Assembly (NCBI RefSeq): GCF_005116675.2
Contig: NZ_CP050699.1
Span: forward strand, 4,831,001 to 4,895,000
DNA: 64,000 nt
Origin: Desulfosediminicola ganghwensis
GTDB lineage: Bacteria; Desulfobacterota; Desulfobulbia; Desulfobulbales; Desulfocapsaceae
Direction: 5' to 3'
Position numbers and translations under genes: made by a program. Numbering within the stretch: the first letter of the stretch is position 1; each line of letters opens with the position of its first letter. Below the pieces are notes generated by a model. The model was given only the letters and a program-made list of their open reading frames with translations. It made no database searches and was not told the origin of the DNA. Of the stretch, positions 13,716 through 23,501 are shown piece after piece.

Positions 13716-15065
13716 TTATACAAGCCCCTGGTCAAGCATGGCATTGACCACTTTTATAAAGCCGGCAATGTTTGCTCCCACCAGATAATTCTGGCCGGCT
13801 CCATATTCGGAAGCCGCATCAAGGCAGGTTTTATGGATACATTTCATGATCTGCTTCAGCCTGGCGTCCACTTCTTCCCGCGGCCAGGACAGGCGCATTG
13901 AATTCTGGGCCATCTCCAGGCCCGAGACAGCAACTCCGCCGGCGTTGGCGGCCTTGCCCGGTGCGTAGAGTACACCACTATCGATCAGGATATCCACCGC
14001 ATCCGGCGTGCAGGGCATGTTCGCACCTTCGCTCACGAGCCTGACTCCACCCTGTAAGAGGTTCTCCGCATCCACTTTATTCACTTCATTCTGGGTTGCA
14101 CAAGGCATTGCGCAATCCGCAGGGTGTGACCAAAGTGGATTGTGGTCAAGGGTTGGGTCTACTGCAGTGTATACGGCATTAGGGTACTTCTCCACATATT
14201 CCTTGATCCGCCCCCGCATTACGTTCTTCAACTCTTTTACATACCTGAGCTTTTCACAGTCAAGCCCTTCTTCATCGTAGATATAGCCGGAAGAGTCAGA
14301 AAGAGTTACCACTTTGCCCCCAAGTTCCAGAATTTTTTCTGTGGTATATTGCGCCACATTTCCAGAACCGGAAACGAGGCAGGACTTGCCCTCCAGCGTT
14401 TCCCCTTGAGTCTCCAGCATCTCTGCCGCAAAATAGACATTACCATAGCCCGTTGCCTCGGGTCGGATCAGACTTCCACCCCAGTTGAGACTTTTGCCGG
14501 TAAGAACGCCTGTAAACTCATTGCTCAACTTCTTGTACATTCCGAACAGGTAGCCGATCTCCCTGGCGCCCACACCGATATCACCTGCCGGCACATCGGT
14601 ATCTGGGCCAATATGGCGATACAATTCCCCCATAAATGATTGGCAAAAGCGCATTACCTCACCATCAGAACGGCCCTTGGGGTTAAAGTCAGAACCTCCT
14701 TTTCCCCCTCCCATGGCCAGTGTTGTCAGCGAATTCTTGAAAACCTGCTCAAAGGCTAAAAATTTTATGATGCCCAGATTCACAGACGGATGAAAGCGCA
14801 GCCCCCCCTTGTAAGGGCCCAGAGCACTATTCATCTGCACCCTGAAGCCACGATTGACTTGAACCTGACCATCGTCATCCTGCCACGGCACCCTGAACAT
14901 GATAACCCGCTCAGGTTCGGTAACTCTCTCCAATACACCTTGCTGCCTGTAGGCGGCGTTACGATCAAGAACAGGTTTTACCGTCTCCACTACCTCCTGT
15001 ACCGCCTGATGGAACTCACGCTGTTCCGGATCCCGTCCTTTGACAAGACTCATTATCTCGTCCAT
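13716..15065 (-). CDS. gdhA: NADP-specific glutamate dehydrogenase
   Basis: Hexameric glutamate dehydrogenase, which makes glutamate from 2-oxoglutarate, ammonia and NADPH. The 449-residue length is that of the NADP-dependent bacterial class. Visible are the substrate-binding lysine segment GPYKGGLRFHPSV, the catalytic MGGGKGGSDFNPKG, DVPAGDIGVGAREIGYLFG, and the Rossmann region CLVSGSGNVAQYTTEK. The frame is open further upstream, but the ATG at 15065 has AAGGAGG eight bases before it and begins like the family (MDEIMSLVKGRDPEQREF). The start lies only 13 bases after the stop of the receiver/PEP-synthase-like gene, so the two are probably cotranscribed. Confidence 0.96.
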   Translation of the reverse strand: MDEIMSLVKGRDPEQREFHQAVQEVVETVKPVLDRNAAYRQQGVLERVTEPERVIMFRVPWQDDDGQVQVNRGFRVQMNSALGPYKGGLRFHPSVNLGIIKFLAFEQVFKNSLTTLAMGGGKGGSDFNPKGRSDGEVMRFCQSFMGELYRHIGPDTDVPAGDIGVGAREIGYLFGMYKKLSNEFTGVLTGKSLNWGGSLIRPEATGYGNVYFAAEMLETQGETLEGKSCLVSGSGNVAQYTTEKILELGGKVVTLSDSSGYIYDEEGLDCEKLRYVKELKNVMRGRIKEYVEKYPNAVYTAVDPTLDHNPLWSHPADCAMPCATQNEVNKVDAENLLQGGVRLVSEGANMPCTPDAVDILIDSGVLYAPGKAANAGGVAVSGLEMAQNSMRLSWPREEVDARLKQIMKCIHKTCLDAASEYGAGQNYLVGANIAGFIKVVNAMLDQGLV

Positions 15066-15078
15066 CGTGCCTCCTTCG

Positions 15079-18000
15079 CTAACTATACTGCTGATTATAC
15101 ATCCTCTGCCCCTCGATCTCACAAACCTGGTCCTGATGAAAAGAACCGGGAAGAATACATGCCTCTGAATTTTTCCCGTCACATTTTATGATGAGCGGTT
15201 TTTCAAACCGTACATGCCGAACAAATTTCAGCCGCTCGATCTCCGGCTGCTCGCTCAGCCAATGCCAGTCTACGAAATCATCTCCCCGGCTCTTTTGAGG
15301 CTTTCGGGGCTGTCTCTCGGTTATGGTCAGGTAGGGGATTCCAAGAGAGGTGATATTCTGGAAAAAATGTGACCCCTGGGAAGGATCTACTTTCAAGATA
15401 TCGTTTCTGAGTTCTATAATAGCCCCTACCCGCGAAATATCCGCCCACTGCACCGGTATACCAAGCCACGGATCGGCAGACCCCCATCTGCCCGGTCCTA
15501 CCAGCAGAAATGGCCTGTCTTCTGCCGTGAGTTTTCTATTTATTGCAGCTATCTCCATGGCAATCTGCCTGGTCTGGCCAGGGTCGAAATCATCAGGATT
15601 TACATAGACCAGATCTGCCATGGTCTCGAAATTCCCATGCCCTAAAGCCTCACTGGAAAAACTGAAGGAATTTTCAATATCTTTATCACAGATCTGTACA
15701 TCTGCCCGCTCACTGCCAGTCACCATCGGCCGAATCTGCAGAAAGTAAAAAGTGGATTTTTTCAGCTCAGGTTCGATCGCCACCGCAAACTCAATCTCAA
15801 CTTCACAGCCCATACCTTTCCTCCCGAGGCTGAGCAGTTCTGTGAGAATCTTTGAGATCGGATACGCATCATATTTCAGCAACTGGGCAAAGGTCATGAT
15901 CTTCAAGCCTGGCAAGTATGCATCGCGGATGACATGTTCTTCGGCAAAATAGGTGGAAGAAAGCTGCTGCACCGGCAGCTCATTTTCAGCGTCCTGAATC
16001 GAGCGTTTGACCAAATTTGATCCATACCTTTTCAGGCAGGTGTTATCCAGCATATTCAAAGCATAAAACTCCCGCTGACAGTTTTCCAGAATATCATCAA
16101 CGGTGGAAAACTGTAATAACCGCTTGGGGTATTGCGGCGAAAATCGAAGAGATTTTTCCCCCTCAACCACGGTCTTGCCGACTCCAAGCGCTATGTGGAC
16201 AATCCCCTCCTCCGGCATCATCCCCATCACCGGATAATAATTGTGCGACTGCGCCACCCCGGCAATTGACGGGTACCAGTAATCGCCATACCGGTTACCC
16301 ACGACCTGCTGGATAATAATTGCCATCGAGTCTCCCCGGCCCTGGCTTGAATATCTGGAGAATGCCCGGGGGCTTTCAAACCAGGTTGAGGCGTAGACAA
16401 GTTTTACCGCACTCTCCAACTGACTGAGACGCTCCTGAAAGTCCTCATTGTTGTTGGCTAGAAAGTAGGTTGAATAGAGCCCTGCGTATGGCTTGAACAG
16501 TGCATCCTCAAGCAGGCTCGAAGAACGCACCGACAGCGGCAGATTATTTTTTTTCAGAAAAGCGGCCAGATCTTTTCTCAGCCAGGCGGGCAGTGTGGCA
16601 TCAAGGAAGAGATCAGCAACCTTTTCATCCGGCATATCCGGCTGGTACTTCAATTTATTTTCAGCCACAAAGGCATCAAAGCCGTCCGCAGTAATCACAC
16701 AGGTTTTAGGAATTGTTACCGTATAATCGGTCAGCACCGAACCTTCAGAATAGGCTCCCTGCAAACAGGCCCACATAAAGGCCAATCCCCTGGCCTTGCC
16801 CCCCATGGTCCCTTCACCAATCTTAACAAAATCCATGATATCGATGTCATAACCGGCATCCCTGAATTTGACGACAACTCCCTGCTGACGTAATTTCCGC
16901 AGCGAGTGTACTTTGAATATCAGGTCCTCGCGCATCTCCTTAATGTTTCCAATGTTAGAAATGTAATCGCAGTGCAGACGACGGGCCAGGGCAACCTCAG
17001 CCCTGGCCATAACCCAGTTTGAAAAGTGGTTGCGTTTAGCATGATACTCTAGCGACTCGTCAGGTATCTCGGCCAGCATTCGTTCAAACTCATACAAGGT
17101 GGAGGCGTGCCCGATTGCGGTTTCATCCGGCATTCTGAACACAAAGTCACCAAAGCCTAGATAATTCAAGAAAAATCTATGTATTTCATCCCGAACGAGT
17201 GGCGAATCTTTATTGATGAATATTGCCGGCAGGCTCTCTGCTGCCTTTCTGTTTTGCGACTCTGAACTAACCATCAGCAGCGGCAGGTCAGAGACTTCCT
17301 TCCGGACCTTGGATAAAAAGGAATAGCCGGCAGAGGAATCTATTTCCCCTGCCTTTTTGAACCTCGCATCGGATATAATGGCAAAGACATATGGCTTATA
17401 GCGCTCATAGAGGTCCATCGCCTCTTCATAGGTGGTAGCCATCAAAATTCTCGGCCGCGCCCGCATCCTGAGCAGCCTGTGGCGCTCATTGAGGCTCTCG
17501 TCCAGAACCGATTGGGTCTGCAGAACTATCTCCTGGTAAATCATCGGCAAGAATAAAGAGGCATAAACAGGAGAGTCTTCCACATAGATGATTACCCTGA
17601 CCATGGCCCTGCCGATATCCTCATCGACATTTCTATGATCTTCGACGTTCTTGATAATTGCCAGCAGCAGATCAGCTTCGCAACACCAGAGAAAGATCCT
17701 GTCAACCCCATGGGCATCGAGCTTGTCAGCAAACGTAGAGCGTATGTGGTGGGCAACCAGAATGACAGGCACATCGGGCCGGATCTTCTTAATTTCGCCA
17801 CCCAGTTCGAATGCGTCCATGCTCCCCAGATACGGCATGGTCATAACCATATCGAAGGGACGCCGTTTGAGGATACCAAGTGCCTCCTCGGCAGTTGAAA
17901 CTCTGGTTATTCTAGGGGCTTTGCTTAGATTCAAACCATGATACTCTTTGATCAGCCTGGTTGCCAGGCTACCATCCTCCTCCATAATAAAGGCATCATA

Positions 18001-18108
18001 GAGACTGGAAACTAGCAGAATTTCCTGCACCTTGAACTGCATCAACTCATGAAATACCTTGAAATGAGGATCGAAATCCGAAACTATCCTTCCTGAGTCG
18101 ATGAGCAT
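15079..18108 (-). CDS. Receiver-receiver-PPDK_N fusion (PEP/pyruvate-binding domain protein)
   Basis: A 1009-residue protein with three parts. Residues about 28-150 have a receiver-like fold, but the phospho-acceptor position reads MVMTMPYLG, without aspartate. Residues about 165-300 form a second receiver-like domain with the acidic pair in VEDSP, a candidate acceptor in AIISDARF and a lysine in FINKDSP. From about 430 to 800 is the ATP-binding N-terminal domain of pyruvate phosphate dikinase/PEP synthase (GEGTMGGKARGLAFM, PLSVRSSSLLEDA, FYFLQIRPMV). The phosphohistidine swivel domain and the PEP/pyruvate barrel are absent, so it cannot be a complete PEP synthase. AAGGTG precedes the ATG by five bases. 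Its 13-base distance to gdhA suggests a role linked to nitrogen or carbon flux, but the reaction is unknown. Confidence 0.85.
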   Translation of the reverse strand: MLIDSGRIVSDFDPHFKVFHELMQFKVQEILLVSSLYDAFIMEEDGSLATRLIKEYHGLNLSKAPRITRVSTAEEALGILKRRPFDMVMTMPYLGSMDAFELGGEIKKIRPDVPVILVAHHIRSTFADKLDAHGVDRIFLWCCEADLLLAIIKNVEDHRNVDEDIGRAMVRVIIYVEDSPVYASLFLPMIYQEIVLQTQSVLDESLNERHRLLRMRARPRILMATTYEEAMDLYERYKPYVFAIISDARFKKAGEIDSSAGYSFLSKVRKEVSDLPLLMVSSESQNRKAAESLPAIFINKDSPLVRDEIHRFFLNYLGFGDFVFRMPDETAIGHASTLYEFERMLAEIPDESLEYHAKRNHFSNWVMARAEVALARRLHCDYISNIGNIKEMREDLIFKVHSLRKLRQQGVVVKFRDAGYDIDIMDFVKIGEGTMGGKARGLAFMWACLQGAYSEGSVLTDYTVTIPKTCVITADGFDAFVAENKLKYQPDMPDEKVADLFLDATLPAWLRKDLAAFLKKNNLPLSVRSSSLLEDALFKPYAGLYSTYFLANNNEDFQERLSQLESAVKLVYASTWFESPRAFSRYSSQGRGDSMAIIIQQVVGNRYGDYWYPSIAGVAQSHNYYPVMGMMPEEGIVHIALGVGKTVVEGEKSLRFSPQYPKRLLQFSTVDDILENCQREFYALNMLDNTCLKRYGSNLVKRSIQDAENELPVQQLSSTYFAEEHVIRDAYLPGLKIMTFAQLLKYDAYPISKILTELLSLGRKGMGCEVEIEFAVAIEPELKKSTFYFLQIRPMVTGSERADVQICDKDIENSFSFSSEALGHGNFETMADLVYVNPDDFDPGQTRQIAMEIAAINRKLTAEDRPFLLVGPGRWGSADPWLGIPVQWADISRVGAIIELRNDILKVDPSQGSHFFQNITSLGIPYLTITERQPRKPQKSRGDDFVDWHWLSEQPEIERLKFVRHVRFEKPLIIKCDGKNSEACILPGSFHQDQVCEIEGQRMYNQQYS

Positions 18109-18420
18109 GGGAACACCTTGTTATTTGGCGGAGAAGATATCCATCAGGGACTGCTTTCAGCTTTCTCCAATTCCCCTGATCCTCAGCTTGAAAATATGAG
18201 GGCCAGGCGTGAGATGATGCGTGACAGATTAGCTCAACACGCCTCGCTTTTTAAAGCTGAGCTTCAGGGGTAATCATATAGCTTTTTACGCTTTTTATTA
18301 TTGTAAGCAGCAAAAACCTGTATTGGTAGTATTTCTTGACAGCGGTACTCAGAACCCGGATGTAATGATTTCTCTAAAAAGTCAGCAGACATCTGCTGAT
18401 ATCCGATCTCCTCCTGAAAT
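18109..18420. other. 312-bp gap with two short palindromes
   Basis: No gene seen. It holds CAGCAGA/TCTGCTG (18383-18398, two-base centre) and CTCCTGAA/TTCAGGAG (18411-18427, one-base centre), the second overlapping the stop of the leftward operon. Neither is a standard terminator; they may be operators or chance. Confidence 0.4.
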
Positions 18421-19449
18421 TCAGGAGACCTCGCCGCCCACCACCAGGTAGACAACAGGAGCGTAGGCGGTAATCAGGATAAATATTATTAAAAACAGAA
18501 TACTGGCAGGTATAGCCATGGCTCTGTAACGACTGACGGGAACGGCCAGACCTGCCAGCTTTTTCAGGGGTTCGATGAGCCCTGATGTTGCTCCTAAAAA
18601 TGTGGCGGAAAACAATGATAAATAGATAGGAAATCCTATGTAGGAATAGTTGGCCTGCAAAATATCAAACGGGCATCTGTGTGAGGGCATGGCATATATA
18701 TATGAGGAAAAAAATACGATCACGGTCCAGAGGGCAGTTGGAAAGAACACAATCCAACCAGTCGTGTTTAACATTAATATTGCATTTGAATAACTTTTAC
18801 CTTTTTGGGCGGTGTAAAACAGTTGAATACCACTGGTGGCAAGAATGAAAGTGGTCAAATAGAGACTACCTAGGAGAAGTACAGGAGAATAAGGGTCAAG
18901 CAAGTTGTAACCGTCACCGGAGGAGGACTTGAACAGCACGCCGCAGCATGATGTGAGTACATCCGGTTCCAGTTTGATCAGGTACAGGAACTGGAACACA
19001 GCATCAACAACCATCAGTGGTAAGAGGAAAAAGAGAAAGATATACTTGGATTTCACTAAAGGATAACTCTCTGACTGATTATCCAGATGGTTAAGCAGCA
19101 GCCAGTAGCCGCAGAAAAACACCAAGACAATCTTCACAAGGAGCGTAACAATGCCATAATCATTGGCCAGGAATGCTCCCGTGGCACACATTGCACCAAC
19201 AAGCGCCCCTGAAAAGGCATCAGCCGCCAACACCAGCATAACTAAGGAAACAACCTGAAAGAAAAGAGCATATTTCATCAGCGCCGAAGTGAGCCAGACC
19301 TCTGTCTCTAATCTGATCTGTCGTGCGGTGTCTGCACCGGAATCCCAGAAACAGACAACTTTGATCCCACACCAGGCTGCCATCAGGCCGAGAAAAAGAA
19401 TACCGACCGAACAGATCATCAAAGCGATGGCCCAGCCGTTTACCAGCAT
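18421..19449 (-). CDS. Polytopic membrane protein, last gene of the NosL/ABC operon
   Basis: A 342-residue integral membrane protein with roughly eight or nine hydrophobic segments. Cysteines stand out: AAWCGIKVVCFW near the N-terminus, MCATG, an adjacent pair in LTSCCGVLF, and a PSHRCPFDILQANYSYIGFP motif near residue 270. The HxCPF motif followed by a YIGFP-type segment is reminiscent of membrane proteins I have seen beside NosL and FtsX-like genes, but I cannot name a family. The start ATG has GGGGGA seven bases upstream, inside the end of the ATPase gene, whose stop is two bases away; it is therefore translated with the operon. The cysteines suggest metal or thiol chemistry in the membrane, as an inference only. 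Confidence 0.8.
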   Translation of the reverse strand: MLVNGWAIALMICSVGILFLGLMAAWCGIKVVCFWDSGADTARQIRLETEVWLTSALMKYALFFQVVSLVMLVLAADAFSGALVGAMCATGAFLANDYGIVTLLVKIVLVFFCGYWLLLNHLDNQSESYPLVKSKYIFLFFLLPLMVVDAVFQFLYLIKLEPDVLTSCCGVLFKSSSGDGYNLLDPYSPVLLLGSLYLTTFILATSGIQLFYTAQKGKSYSNAILMLNTTGWIVFFPTALWTVIVFFSSYIYAMPSHRCPFDILQANYSYIGFPIYLSLFSATFLGATSGLIEPLKKLAGLAVPVSRYRAMAIPASILFLIIFILITAYAPVVYLVVGGEVS

Positions 19450-19451
19450 GC

Positions 19452-20189
19452 TCAGTCCCCCAGGACAACAGATCTTTCGTTCACCACATCCCTGAAACCA
19501 GACTGTTGATCAACCTCGGGTAGTACCCTGCCATCAACCACATCCATTACCCGATCTATCTCAACACGCTCGAAAACACGAGGGTCGTGTGACGCTATAA
19601 CAATTGTCTTGCCTTGCTTTTTCAGCTGAGCTATCGAATCCATAAAAGAAGTCGCCAGACCAGAGTCCAGGTGAGCGGTGGGTTCATCGGCAATGATTAC
19701 TGGAGGATTATTAATAAGCGCCCGGCATATGGCTACACGCTGCAGTTCGCCCCCTGAGATGCTGTCCGCCTTGAAATATGCCCGCTCCATAAGATGGTAA
19801 CTGCTCAACAGGGCTGCCGCCCTTTCGGTTCGATCTTTGCCGGAAACACCTGCCGGAAACAGCGGCAAACTGACATTTTCGATTACGCTGAGATCCCCGA
19901 TTATATTGAAATCCTGAAAAATGAATCCAATTTTTTCTCTTCTGAACCGGCAGAGAAAATGATCTGGTAACCTGGACACCTTTTTGCCACCCAGCTCAGC
20001 CCTGCCGCTCGACGGAGGAAATATGCAGCCGATTATAGAAAGAAGTGTTGTTTTACCTGAGCCGGATGCACCGCGCAGACAGACCATTTCTCCGCTCGCT
20101 ATTGCCAGGTCAACCCTCTGGAGAGCAATGACTTCATTCGACTCGCCCCGGTTATAAATCTTTGTCACTCCTTCAAGCTCAATCCGCAT
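19452..20189 (-). CDS. ABC transporter ATP-binding protein, LolD/MacB type
   Basis: A 245-residue ATPase of the type that pairs with FtsX/MacB-like permeases. Walker A is LRGASGSGKTTLLSIIG (about residues 37-50), the Q loop sits in FIFQDFNII, the signature is SISGGELQRVAICRALI, Walker B is PVIIADEPTAHLD, and the switch histidine is in VIASHD. The permease gene ends one base upstream and the membrane protein gene begins two bases downstream, so the partner assignment is strong. These ATPases usually drive conformational work on periplasmic or lipoprotein substrates rather than classical import. What this one moves is unknown; the NosL and redoxin genes in the operon suggest copper or thiol handling. 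Confidence 0.92.
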   Translation of the reverse strand: MRIELEGVTKIYNRGESNEVIALQRVDLAIASGEMVCLRGASGSGKTTLLSIIGCIFPPSSGRAELGGKKVSRLPDHFLCRFRREKIGFIFQDFNIIGDLSVIENVSLPLFPAGVSGKDRTERAAALLSSYHLMERAYFKADSISGGELQRVAICRALINNPPVIIADEPTAHLDSGLATSFMDSIAQLKKQGKTIVIASHDPRVFERVEIDRVMDVVDGRVLPEVDQQSGFRDVVNERSVVLGD

Positions 20190-20190
20190 G

Positions 20191-21381
20191 CTACACCACC
20201 GTATCTGCTCTCACGACTGAACTGCGCCAGGATGGAACTACGGTGGCGCAGAGATATGGGAGTACCGAAAAAGCGAGGATCAATATAATATCTTCGACCA
20301 GCAGGGGTGGGGCAATAGTCAGCCCCGGTCTCAAAACGGACCACCCCAACAACAACGGTTTGAAGATAGCCCCCTGCCACCACATTATATGTACCCAGGC
20401 CAGGCCATAACCCAGCAGAAACGCTAACAGAGAAACAAGCGTGGACTCCCAGAATCGCACTGCCATCACATCGGCGGTCTCCCAACCGAGCACTTTGAGT
20501 ATTCCAACTTCCCGAATATCTTCCCTGGTGAGCCCTGATGCCTTGTCATAGGCAAGAATTGCGAACGCAGCTAGTGATGCCAACAGGCAGAAGCTTCCGA
20601 AACCACTCCGCCAGCCAAACACGACACTGTACGTCTTAAGTATCTGATCTCGAGTCAACACCCGGGTGCCAGGTAAACGATCTGCAATTTTCGCAGCAAT
20701 AGTGTCGATCTCCCTTGGGTTACCGGCATAAACCATGAGATCTGTTATCTCATCTTCGCCCATGGCAAACAGATTTCTTGCGGCCCCGAGCGAAACAAGC
20801 AAGATATCCCCGGTTACCGGCTCAGTTTTCTCATCAAATACGCCGGTGGTTGTGAAGGAAACCAATTCAAGGTCTGGGCGAAATAGAGAAAAACTCTTAC
20901 GTTCACCAAGCCCCATCGATCTGCGCACTCCCGTGCTCAACACCACATCTCCCATGCTACCGGCTGTCGGCAATTCTCCTTTGATGCCCTCAACAGGCAG
21001 GGCATGGGAACCATTTTCTGCCAAGTCGAGCCCCACCACGGTGTAGTTCGCTCCGTTCTTTTCATCGAAATAGTAACCCCAGATTCTGGGTGTTATAGAC
21101 TTAATTCCAAAAATATCATCTATTCTGGTTGCGGCATCTGCTGTCAACGATACCTGGCGTCCGGCTACCAACTGCTGCACGGTAATCTCCGGTGCATGCT
21201 TGAGCACCTGAGCCGCCAACTCGGTCAGCCCGCGACTCATGAGCAGAAATGAGGAAAAAAGAAAAATGACCAGACTGAAAATGACGAGTATGCCGAAATT
21301 TTTTGTTTTCTTCCTGTTGAGAGATCCCAGAGTGTAGTCCAGGATATTCAGCTGGCGCTGCAACTTGAGCCGAATACTCAT
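20191..21381 (-). CDS. ABC transporter permease, FtsX/MacB type
   Basis: A 396-residue permease with the layout of the MacB/LolCE superfamily: one N-terminal membrane helix (about residues 25-50), a periplasmic domain of about 200 residues, and three C-terminal helices (from about 265, 310 and 365). The conserved cytoplasmic segment TREDIREVGILKVLGWETADVM is the coupling element that contacts the ATPase. Its start codon overlaps the stop of the preceding small gene by one base (TAATG), and the ATPase gene follows after one base. The periplasmic domain is where it could meet NosL or the redoxin lipoprotein of the same operon. Substrate unknown. Confidence 0.9.
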   Translation of the reverse strand: MSIRLKLQRQLNILDYTLGSLNRKKTKNFGILVIFSLVIFLFSSFLLMSRGLTELAAQVLKHAPEITVQQLVAGRQVSLTADAATRIDDIFGIKSITPRIWGYYFDEKNGANYTVVGLDLAENGSHALPVEGIKGELPTAGSMGDVVLSTGVRRSMGLGERKSFSLFRPDLELVSFTTTGVFDEKTEPVTGDILLVSLGAARNLFAMGEDEITDLMVYAGNPREIDTIAAKIADRLPGTRVLTRDQILKTYSVVFGWRSGFGSFCLLASLAAFAILAYDKASGLTREDIREVGILKVLGWETADVMAVRFWESTLVSLLAFLLGYGLAWVHIMWWQGAIFKPLLLGWSVLRPGLTIAPPLLVEDIILILAFSVLPYLCATVVPSWRSSVVRADTVV

Positions 21382-21671
21382 TATTGAACCGGCCGGAAGA
21401 AAGAGCCTGAAGGGAAGTGTTCCAACGCCCCGGGATGATCCATAAATGGAACCACCTCATCGCTCACCGCAGGGTGTCTGGTGTACCTGGCCTCAGTTGA
21501 TAGAGCCAGATCAGAAAGGCCCATCAGCGATACCATTTCACCAGCTACCGCATAAGATGCAAGAACATCTGTTCTTCGCTCCATTATGCTCACCAGAAGT
21601 GTTAGCATTGATAGAATTACAGCCACAACCAAAAGACAAAACAGGCGAAGTCGAGGGATCGTGCCGCTCAT
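21381..21671 (-). CDS. Small membrane-anchored protein of the NosL/ABC operon, 96 residues
   Basis: One N-terminal hydrophobic helix (about residues 8-27) is followed by an extracytoplasmic tail of about 65 residues with LSDLALSTEARYTRHPAVS and, near the end, DHPGALEHFPSGSFF. I recall closely similar short proteins with a TEARYTRH...HP.ALEHFPSGS pattern encoded next to NosL and FtsX-like permease genes in other bacteria, so it is likely a dedicated subunit rather than a chance frame; no function is known to me. Its start overlaps the nosL stop by four bases and its stop overlaps the permease start by one, which implies coupled translation. Histidines and a glutamate are the only potential ligand residues, with no cysteine in the tail. 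Confidence 0.8.
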   Translation of the reverse strand: MSGTIPRLRLFCLLVVAVILSMLTLLVSIMERRTDVLASYAVAGEMVSLMGLSDLALSTEARYTRHPAVSDEVVPFMDHPGALEHFPSGSFFRPVQ

Positions 21672-22192
21672 TTCTTCATGCCGCCCATCATCTTGTGCCC
21701 TTTTCGAATACTTTGCACAAGCTCATTATCGATTTCATCAAATAAGAGAACTCTTTTGCCGCGGTGATCTTTAGCAAAATTCTTAGCGGCCTCCATGGTT
21801 TCGAAAGGCACAAACTCATTTCCCATGGGACCATAAACATCACTGCCCATTACATAAAACGCCTGCTCGCCGTCTATCCACTCCTGACTGTAGTAATCCC
21901 GTACCACCACATCTCCAACAGTTGCATCACCTGCGCCAAAATCCTTTGGTGACATGTAATACGCCAACATGTCCTTGGGACCGTCAAACATTTCCACCCT
22001 GTCATCCGACAAACGAATCTGAGCAACCCAGGTCGGATACTTACTGACAAACATTCCGCAGACCGGGCAGCGATCTCTGGCGGTCACCACAGCAAGAGGT
22101 TTACTTTCGCCGGCTTTGGAGTTCACTACAATTATCGCCCCTTCCACCAGCAAAAACACCATGACAAGTGTCAAACCAACAATTCGTTTCAT
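21668..22192 (-). CDS. nosL: NosL-family copper-binding protein
   Basis: A 174-residue protein with an N-terminal hydrophobic segment (MKRIVGLTLVMVFLLVEGAI) and the NosL core: RDRCPVCGMFVSKYPTW, then ..DRVEMFDGPKDMLAYYM.. and DYYSQEWIDGEQAFYV, ending in a basic and methionine-rich tail (KGHKMMGGMKK). NosL proteins bind Cu(I) and help deliver copper to nitrous oxide reductase, but many homologues, like this one, occur without nosZ nearby and presumably serve other metal targets. The ATG at 22192 is preferred because GAGGGG lies eight bases upstream; a GTG at 22201 is the alternative. The protein lacks an obvious lipobox. It overlaps the next gene by four bases. Confidence 0.85.
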   Translation of the reverse strand: MKRIVGLTLVMVFLLVEGAIIVVNSKAGESKPLAVVTARDRCPVCGMFVSKYPTWVAQIRLSDDRVEMFDGPKDMLAYYMSPKDFGAGDATVGDVVVRDYYSQEWIDGEQAFYVMGSDVYGPMGNEFVPFETMEAAKNFAKDHRGKRVLLFDEIDNELVQSIRKGHKMMGGMKK

Positions 22193-22238
22193 CAATTTCA
22201 CCCCTCAAATGATGTGCGGTGCAACCATTGAACGTTTT

Positions 22239-22757
22239 TTAATTTTCATGCAAATACTCTCCCAGCAATTCTTCAAATTCAGCTTCGCCCACCCCACCGA
22301 AAAGAGTTGCCAGTATACGCCTGTCCGGGCCGATCATAAAAGTCTGAGGATAAATTTTGACGTTAAACAAATCCGCCAACCTGGCATCCTCATCCATCAC
22401 CACATGAAATTTAATACCCAGTTTTTCTATATAGTCATCCACAGCCTGGCGCTCTTCAAAGAAGCTGCTCACATAGACGATGGTCAGACCCTTGTCCTTA
22501 TATTTACTGTAATATTGATTAAATAACGGGGTATCAGCTTTACAGAATTTGCAATTGGTTTCCCAGAACCTGACAATCACCGGTTTCCCCCCCAGATTTG
22601 AAAGCACAATCACATCACCTTCCAGATCCCGGGCCATAAAATCAGGCGCCTCATCACCAGCCATAAGCGGCCCGCCGGTTCTCTCCTGCTTGCACCCGAA
22701 AAACAAAAAAATAACACAAGAAAAAAGTAGAAACCAATTGAATGTCAGGTTCTTCAC
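22239..22757 (-). CDS. TlpA-like redoxin lipoprotein
   Basis: A 172-residue thioredoxin-fold protein of the TlpA/ResA kind. The start has a hydrophobic segment ending in a lipobox-like FLFFGC, so it is probably a lipoprotein. The redox motif is CKFC in VRFWETNCKFCKADTPLF, and the cis-proline loop is IYPQTFMIGPD. Such proteins keep periplasmic thiols or metal-binding cysteines reduced. It is the first gene of the operon: the GTG at 22757 follows AAAGGAGG at about nine bases, and nosL starts within 50 bases of its stop. Reducing the NosL CxxC is the obvious hypothesis. The upstream region is shared with the divergent XRE/two-CW regulator gene. Confidence 0.9.
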   Translation of the reverse strand: MKNLTFNWFLLFSCVIFLFFGCKQERTGGPLMAGDEAPDFMARDLEGDVIVLSNLGGKPVIVRFWETNCKFCKADTPLFNQYYSKYKDKGLTIVYVSSFFEERQAVDDYIEKLGIKFHVVMDEDARLADLFNVKIYPQTFMIGPDRRILATLFGGVGEAEFEELLGEYLHEN

Positions 22758-23123
22758 TGCCTACAACCTCCTTTCCCATGCGGGTTCAGGCATCAGTCCA
22801 TTTCTAGCTGCTCCCCCTCACCGTTGTCCGTGTCCATATTTCATTTTTTTCAACTTGTCGAACTTGTGCGGCCTGTGCTTCCATGGTACAGTGTGGCACC
22901 AAATGCATCATATATAATTGTTTTACCAGAAGTATACACGTTGCCTAACGATTGCTTAAGGACTTTATACTCCTGTTGTCCGTAAGGTTGGATACAGGCA
23001 AAACAACCCGGAATCAACAGGTCGGTCAAGCAGGCGCAAAACACTTCTGGACCGTAGTGTGGCACAATTTGTATTGCCTGAGGTCCACCAACACTCAGGC
23101 TATTGATTTTGGCTAGGAATGTT
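22758..23123. promoter_or_regulatory. Divergent regulatory region with direct and inverted repeats
   Basis: This 366-bp region separates the redoxin-NosL-ABC operon from the XRE regulator. It contains AGTGTGGCAC twice (22890-22899 and 23056-23065), the second followed by ACAATTTG, and an inverted repeat GCCTGAG/CTCAGGC across 11 bases (23076-23100) that ends 23 bases before the regulator start. The set suggests regulated divergent promoters. A leftward frame of 119 codons runs across it and into the regulator gene, but it looks like a shadow. Confidence 0.5.
23076..23100. promoter_or_regulatory. Candidate operator for the XRE/two-CW regulator
   Basis: GCCTGAG and CTCAGGC form a perfect 7-bp inverted repeat with 11 bases between, just before the ATG at 23124. 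XRE proteins bind such dyads as dimers, and autoregulation is common. It is also within 320 bp of the divergent redoxin start. Confidence 0.4.
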
Positions 23124-23501
23124 ATGGAAAATACAGATTTTCTCCAGATCCGGAAGCGCTTAGGCAAAACCCAGAAAGAGCTTGCAGCTTTGCTGGGTAC
23201 TTCACTCAAAGCCGTCAGCAGTTACGAGCAAGGTTGGCGCGGTATACCTGCCCATGTGGAAAGGCAGTTATTCTTTTTACTGTCGCAGAAAAGTGGCAAG
23301 CGCCACAACATGAAAAACTGCTGGGAAACAAAGCGTTGCCCCGAGAAAAAGCGTCGCCAGTGTCCCGCATGGGAGTTCGATGCAGGTCAGATTTGCTGGT
23401 TTATCAACGGCACTATCTGCAACTCAACGAACAGATCCAGTTGGGAAGAAAAGATTGAAGTCTGCAAGGAATGTCAGATAATGAAACGAGCCTGCTGCTA
23501 G
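23124..23501 (+). CDS. XRE-type regulator with cysteine-rich two-CW tail
   Basis: A 125-residue protein. Residues 1-60 are an XRE helix-turn-helix (RKRLGKTQKELAALLGTSLKAVSSYEQG). Residues 65-125 hold nine cysteines and three tryptophans in the pattern of the two-CW domain: NCWETKRCP, RRQCPAWE, ICWFINGTIC and a terminal CKEC...ACC. Such tails probably bind a metal or iron-sulfur cluster, so the protein may sense redox state or metal. AGGA lies eight bases before the ATG at 23124; an upstream in-frame ATG at 23103 is less likely. It is divergent to the redoxin-NosL-ABC operon, which makes it the natural candidate regulator. Family assignment rests on motif recollection. Confidence 0.85.
   Translation: MENTDFLQIRKRLGKTQKELAALLGTSLKAVSSYEQGWRGIPAHVERQLFFLLSQKSGKRHNMKNCWETKRCPEKKRRQCPAWEFDAGQICWFINGTICNSTNRSSWEEKIEVCKECQIMKRACC

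Follow-up and report, generated by a model that had tools for sequence, protein, structure and literature searches.

A six-gene NosL-containing ABC operon of Desulfosediminicola ganghwensis as a candidate copper-handling system where no nitrous oxide reductase is found

Introduction

NosL is described in PMC6530538 as a dedicated chaperone that serves assembly of the CuZ centre of nitrous oxide reductase (N2OR, the NosZ protein), with a CXM motif that likely binds Cu(I). In Campylobacter, according to PMC10783030, FetA and the putative ATP-binding cassette (ABC) transporter FetBCD are each required for iron uptake through FetMP, and the thioredoxins FetE and FetF are required jointly. The subject of this analysis is an operon with likenesses to both systems, found in a 64,000-nucleotide stretch of the Desulfosediminicola ganghwensis genome (contig NZ_CP050699.1, positions 4,831,001 to 4,895,000; hereafter the window). 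Its six genes encode a redoxin, a NosL-family protein, a small anchored protein, an FtsX-type permease, an ABC ATPase, and a polytopic cysteine protein modeled with eight transmembrane (TM) helices. Our best reading, by analogy, is that the operon works like NosDFYL or FetABCDEF and is a member of neither, because defining features of each are lacking. As to function, we tentatively propose, at slightly less than an even chance, that it is a cell-envelope machine powered by ATP that handles copper independently of NosZ, acting as an ABC-driven loader.

The comparison with NosDFY and NosL is the most direct. Here too, an ABC ATPase accompanies a NosL-family protein of predicted Cu(I)-binding type, as does a membrane permease that would act in the periplasm, but the permease is FtsX-type, neither NosD nor NosY is among the six proteins, no NosZ was found in the genome, and a redoxin and the 8-TM cysteine protein are added. 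With FetMP-FetABCDEF of Campylobacter jejuni, as presented in PMC10783030, the operon shares an envelope ABC unit, an ATPase and a thioredoxin-like protein in one cluster, and a polytopic cysteine protein beside a periplasmic protein of metal-binding type. It differs in having NosL rather than P19, one permease rather than two, and no FetM-like gene among the six; FetA carries DUF2318 (PF10080), whereas the 8-TM protein has no DUF2318 or FtrD-like match.

Transporters of the FtsX/MacB type perform mechanical work in the periplasm. The operon resembles the MacB, LolCDE and FtsEX class in its FtsX-type permease and an ATPase of the same group, but none of its six genes encodes a MacA adaptor or is of TolC type, and its subfamily scores fall under the curated cut-offs. 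It consists, as judged from sequence, of known types of part plus two families that lack a Pfam or NCBIfam model. No account of this operon was found in the open-licence literature searched by title and start of abstract.

Results

The six open reading frames (ORFs) all lie on the minus strand, from 22757 to 18421, in the order redoxin, NosL, small protein, permease, ATPase, polytopic protein (Table 1), separated in the direction of transcription by a 37-bp gap, a 4-bp overlap, a 1-bp overlap, a 1-bp gap and a 2-bp gap. A preliminary description, made from the sequence alone, had reported this operon of overlapping or nearly touching genes and an ALEHFPSGS tail on the small anchored protein, and both are present. 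It had also taken the tight spacing as the mark of a single machine, an idea supported by how often the set is kept together. Among the best 80 of 560 confirmed loci of the 342-aa polytopic protein in the GTDB collection, 57 have at least 4.6 kb of upstream sequence (51 have at least 6.2 kb), and at 47 of these 57 the full set of six is present on a single strand. Six of the remaining ten lack the redoxin only and one lacks the small protein only, while L139 and L144 lack all five upstream genes and L128 lacks four. Recurrence of the same gene set and order in relatives rules out a chance arrangement. Gene maps were made by longest-ORF picking with BLAST labels, and conservation counts, drawn from the best 80 of 560 loci, lean to close relatives. 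Those 80 come mostly from metagenome-assembled genomes named Desulfobulbaceae, Desulfobacterales or Deltaproteobacteria, with five named Nitrospirae or Thermodesulfovibrionales. Across a set of 117 related genomes, the window's own included, the polytopic protein occurs in 60, again counting its own.

The preliminary description had further held that the operon stands without a nitrous oxide reductase, and it had named a full nos set elsewhere in the genome, with the operon tied to NosZ, as the finding that would overturn it. Searches gave the opposite picture, with NosZ found in none of the same 117 genomes of which 60 have the polytopic protein. In the window's own genome, NosZ model TIGR04246 reaches just 22.9 bits, in the CuA region, on a stretch overlapping the gene for cytochrome oxidase subunit II (COX2); the positive control, NosZ of Sinorhizobium meliloti pSymA, scores 478 bits (8.5e-144), itself under the model cut-off of 625. 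The model finds NosZ in 0 of the 117 genomes at 1e-30, own included, and in 0 of 257 genomes of the class at 1e-20, and in four genomes of the same genus its sole match is to a CuA region, in G002 (1e-5). An ordinary Nos accessory set was rejected on these results. No NosD match was found with Pfam and NCBIfam models among the six operon proteins, to which that search was confined, and the permease belongs to FtsX (PF02687) rather than the NosY type. PMC11033732 reports, from Nitrospirota, divergent proteins resembling NosZ that combine a lactonase-type propeller with a cupredoxin domain. None is indicated in the window's own genome, whose sole PF00116 match is COX2, with no search aimed at that type. 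A PF00116 match at L176 (G114), in a 566-aa frame that also takes in a dehydrogenase-like stretch upstream, appears by eye to be a cytochrome oxidase subunit II with fused cytochrome c, not NosZ.

NosL itself is assigned by Pfam (PF05573, E 7.2e-34, 117.4 bits) and shows homology to solved NosL structures down to E 1e-10; no second NosL was found in the genome, a single contig of 5.65 Mb. Its motif of Cu(I)-binding type, C45xxC48-G-M50, is kept at C45, C48, G49 and M50 in 34 of 34 rows; no cysteine precedes residue 45, so the protein has no lipobox. The redoxin matches Pfam AhpC-TSA (4.6e-23) and scores 104 bits by a ResA model whose cut-off is 170. It combines a lipobox-like FFGC22 start with a CKFC active site (C69, C72), and C22, C69 and C72 are each conserved in 23 of 23 aligned rows. 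For the permease, Pfam FtsX (PF02687) is above cut-off at 7.4e-11, MacB_PCD is slightly below at 25.1 bits (cut-off 27), and similarity to lolCE is weak, 37.7 bits against a cut-off of 362. The ATPase matches ABC_tran (1.1e-28), with subfamily scores of 197 bits for MacB, 186 for FtsE and 181 for LolD (cut-off 308), all under their own cut-offs. The small protein, at 96 aa, has no Pfam or NCBIfam family above cut-off; it shows one N-terminal hydrophobic stretch and a conserved tail with EARYTRH and EHFPSGS, in which E60, A61, R62, Y63, T64, R65 and H66, as well as H85, F86 and P87, are each present in at least 34 of 37 aligned rows.

The polytopic protein, 342 aa in length, likewise has no Pfam or NCBIfam match. 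From an alignment of 48 sequences (47 of the best 80 loci plus the window protein), AlphaFold2 builds a model with eight long helices at a predicted local distance difference test (pLDDT) score of 91.8 and a predicted TM-score (pTM) of 0.90. Residues C88, C168-C169 and H257-x-C259 are invariant (48 of 48 rows); at position 262, 34 rows have Cys and 14, the window protein among them, have Asp. The conserved Cys and His positions lie on the loops TM2-3, 4-5 and 6-7. The odd loops, which are short, average 1.6-2.2 Lys plus Arg residues, against 0.1, 1.1 and 1.4 for the longer even loops, and from these charges and the positive-inside rule the invariant residues are predicted to lie on the periplasmic face. 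Foldseek with this model returned nothing at E <= 0.001 (best E 0.31), and the best hit of a VIA fold search, at Z 14.9, is a designed helical bundle; we claim no fold relative, and the model may still have a known fold.

Evidence that copper is the substrate comes from a paralogous core of small protein, FtsX-type permease, ATPase and 8-TM protein, less similar to the window's and without a redoxin, at 15 of 40 mapped loci. In 11 of the 15 a copper gene adjoins the core, be it NosL, a second NosL, a CusA/CusB-type gene or SCO1. Counted by kind, with clusters named from Pfam tests of one or two members each (one each for CusA and CusB), NosL occurs at 8 loci, a second NosL at 6, a CusA-type resistance-nodulation-division (RND) pump at 5 (L037, L039, L040, L044 and L045, two of them with a CusB-type adaptor) and SCO1 at 6. 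At L034, L036 and L048, where NosL is missing, SCO1 and a cytochrome-c-like protein stand beside the core. Three of the 15 have nearby a large secreted protein of a single cluster, 660 to 1483 aa with the shorter ones truncated where the locus stops, of which the two members tested both match multicopper oxidase PF07731. The four loci without a copper gene are L035, L043, and two contigs of less than 6 kb with the 8-TM gene only (L033, L051). Because one core is shared with several unrelated copper proteins, copper is the best-supported predicted substrate. The preliminary description had proposed loading or extraction of copper or another metal; its copper component gains support from the paralogous clusters beside CusA/B, SCO1 and multicopper oxidase; these neighbors are compatible with either direction of transfer.

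A candidate acceptor appears in the sister families. A secreted beta-propeller protein, about 390 aa long and bearing a CxxCH motif for c-type heme near its C terminus, is encoded close to the operon at 33 of the 51 loci whose upstream sequence reaches 6.2 kb or more. Its gene is usually divergent from the operon and beside a second FtsX-type permease, and a second ATPase lies upstream of the redoxin. Co-occurrence was counted in genome sets compiled by hand, taking as operon form A a best 8-TM hit at E <= 1e-60 plus the split hits of G075 and G097, checked on gene maps for part of the set, and counting partial 8-TM hits, such as those in G050 and G060, as not form A. Of 117 genomes, 29 have both operon and propeller, 21 the operon only, 4 the propeller only, and 63 neither. 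Outside the window's own family the propeller accompanies the operon in 26 of 29 genomes, and the other three (G072, G098, G106) have a divergent form at E 3e-13 to 4e-17, scores partly inflated because the profile's alignment, 34 of the best 80 loci plus L150, includes in L150 a propeller that is itself divergent. These divergent propellers adjoin the second type of permease, as found by BLAST in G072 and by eye in G098 and G106. Two further arrangements were observed. In G079, G107 and G114, frames of 783 to 829 aa hold more than one propeller match, apparently in tandem, with six matching places in G107. At L177:5413-12001 (G072), a divergent propeller and an FtsX-type permease are followed in a row by an ATPase, another permease of larger size, a lipoprotein-like protein and a redoxin, making up a separate ABC cluster whose layout resembles that of Fet.

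The propeller model (pLDDT 85.4) has 24 strands, making six blades. Residues H55, H118, C149, H308, D309, C367, C370, H371 and C387 are invariant in 35 of 35 rows, and H87, H90, H200 and H383 are conserved in 34 of 35. Several conserved residues lie, by our own blade count, at a blade's first strand or immediately ahead of it, which is also where the metals of N2OR sit. Fold comparison gives Z of 20.0-20.1 to N2OR and thiocyanate dehydrogenase and 20.4-22.6 to LRP6, a surface-layer protein and YncE; the similarity says little, because propellers without metal score as high or higher. Against solved structures the propeller profile finds hydrazine synthase beta (1.7e-07) and WD40-type proteins, and no N2OR or thiocyanate dehydrogenase at E <= 1. 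Like those two enzymes, at a fold Z of about 20, the sister-family protein is a secreted beta-propeller with conserved His. Unlike them it has a c-type heme motif, no CuA domain and no sequence match, and its model has six blades where theirs, according to PMC6530538 and PMC6504805, have seven. A resemblance in residue spacing to the active-site positions of thiocyanate dehydrogenase, as given in PMC6504805, allows several mappings, and we make no claim for particular residues. Loci for thiocyanate dehydrogenase also hold copper transport genes, according to the same paper.

Table 1. Features of the operon and its immediate surroundings, in window coordinates
Feature	Position	Strand	Details
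Redoxin (ResA/TlpA-like), probable lipoprotein	22239..22757	-	172 aa, GTG start; Pfam AhpC-TSA
NosL-family protein	21668..22201	-	177 aa, GTG start; Pfam NosL
Small anchored protein	21381..21671	-	96 aa; ORF; no family above cut-off
FtsX/MacB-type ABC permease	20191..21381	-	396 aa; Pfam FtsX
ABC ATPase, MacB/LolD/FtsE group	19452..20189	-	245 aa; Pfam ABC_tran
8-TM polytopic protein, no family found	18421..19449	-	342 aa; AlphaFold2 model and alignment
Divergent helix-turn-helix (HTH) protein, Cys-rich tail	23103..23501	+	Pfam HTH_3 4.3e-07
Terminator-like hairpin	18382..18399	-	consensus match alone; about 21 bases 3' of last stop

The terminator scan gave 9 hairpins in total, not clearly more than the 6.0 (standard deviation 2.6) in shuffles, and the one after the operon is a consensus match alone. 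The promoter scan found no promoter-like site within 500 bases upstream of the redoxin, and in the region as a whole it returned 4 sites, fewer than the 6.4 in shuffles. The divergent HTH protein with its Cys-rich tail, a neighbor kept in part of the loci, is a possible metal- or redox-responsive regulator; homologs form a cluster in 8 mapped loci, the window included, and are present in 8 of the 80 named loci. Downstream, on the minus strand at 13716-18108, lie two genes identified by eye, one glutamate dehydrogenase-like and the other, of 1009 aa, response-regulator/phosphoenolpyruvate-synthase-like; homologs of the 1009-aa protein form cluster c13 in 6 mapped loci.

Discussion

The mechanism we propose draws on the anatomy of the proteins and on gene neighborhood. 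The CxxCGM site of NosL, lying beyond the inner membrane, would hold Cu(I), and the predicted periplasmic thiolate/His site of the 8-TM protein would take or hand on the ion, with the redoxin keeping the cysteines of both reduced. The permease, ATPase and small protein would convert ATP hydrolysis into a periplasmic shape change through which copper is handed to an acceptor protein, no transport across the membrane being involved. In the sister families, the likeliest acceptor would be the co-occurring secreted beta-propeller with the c-type heme motif. A more specific proposal, which we regard as doubtful, makes the operon one of the two ABC halves of a system for copper maturation that first served a new family of secreted copper enzymes. 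These would be six-bladed propellers with a His/Cys metal hub and a covalent c-type heme in place of CuA, used in sulfur-cycling Desulfobulbales and Nitrospirota, and the window's lineage would have retained the loader although this client was lost or replaced.

Several observations weigh against an ABC-driven copper loader. FtsX-type permeases act on many substrates, copper binding by the operon's proteins is a prediction, and CusA/B neighbors fit efflux equally well as loading. The association of operon and propeller (Fisher p = 4e-10) treats related genomes as independent. Within the window's own family just 3 of 21 operon genomes have the propeller, and it was not found in the window's own genome, profile search included; as a client there it was rejected for that reason. 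A profile search of the other 18 own-family operon genomes gave one weak match, in G063, at E 0.007. The operon also appears dispensable, since G001, a single-contig genome of the same genus, has no match to its polytopic protein; G003, likewise of that genus and in one contig, has the operon. Finally, COX2 is found in 18 of 50 genomes with the operon and 22 of 67 without (p = 0.44), and it was rejected as a client for want of association across the 117 genomes. A 690-aa multicopper oxidase with a twin-arginine start, present in 2 of 117 genomes, the window's own included, was rejected as too rare. The window's own genome also has, at G000:C1:3124015-3124299 (L165/L167), a multicopper-oxidase C-terminal match of 78 bits in a 168-aa frame, which may be a gene fragment.

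Among the alternatives, copper detoxification, in which NosL and the 8-TM protein would gather periplasmic Cu(I) and the ABC unit would send it to an exit route or sequester it, is unlikely, though it survives best. It draws on the CusA-type RND gene at 5 of the 15 paralogous loci, with a CusB-type adaptor at 2 of these, but in the mapped loci the redoxin-bearing form had no neighbor from the CusA or CusB cluster, and the operon has no adaptor or outer-membrane gene. Presence of the propeller in all 29 of 29 sister-family operon genomes, divergent forms counted, speaks more for a dedicated client than for general efflux.

Redox-assisted uptake of iron or copper, of the FetMP-FetABCDEF kind, in which the ABC unit and thioredoxin would bring reducing power to a membrane metal site, strikes us as improbable. 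The parts are similar, namely ABC permeases, an ATPase, thioredoxins and a polytopic cysteine protein (PMC10783030). In addition, an FtrD-like PF10080 protein follows the 8-TM gene at the Nitrospirota locus L151, and the sister-family second permease has a weak match in G018, to a partial permease of Fet type (hhalign probability 76, E 2e-5). Against this reading, the permease family of the operon in the window does not match that G018 permease (probability 3), the metal protein is NosL rather than P19 and the permease is one rather than two, and P19 (PF10634) was not found in the window's genome and occurs in 1 of the 117.

A LolCDE-like machine for release of lipoproteins or other envelope proteins, with a thiol-redox arm and an incidental copper role for NosL, is very unlikely. 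The lipobox-like start of the redoxin and the weak similarity to lolCE (37.7 bits) and LolD (181 bits) would suit it, but these scores are far under the cut-offs of 362 and 308, NosL here has no lipobox, and the paralogous clusters hold several unrelated copper proteins.

Hardly credible at all is copper supply to the genome's cytochrome c oxidase, for while a cox operon with a SCO1-type protein is present (COX2 assigned by PF00116, subunits by eye), and own-family co-occurrence of the operon with COX2 lies slightly above chance (15 of 21 genomes with the operon against 21 of 51 without, a weak association at one-sided p = 0.018), the wider set of 117 shows none, the cox operon already has its own SCO, and G001 has COX2 without a match to the polytopic protein. 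That cytochrome c oxidase operon, at L162:3531-8138 in the window's genome and outside the window, also includes a DOMON-domain protein along with the SCO1-type protein, in a genome that is sulfate-reducer-like.

If the operon is indeed an envelope copper-handling machine, its conservation as an ATP-driven NosL operon where NosZ is not found points to further enzymes of copper or another metal in the anaerobes of the sulfur cycle. The 8-TM cysteine protein and the small protein with EARYTRH and EHFPSGS, neither with a Pfam or NCBIfam model, may serve as marker families for such systems, and the propeller of the sister lineages offers a concrete candidate enzyme, open to testing.

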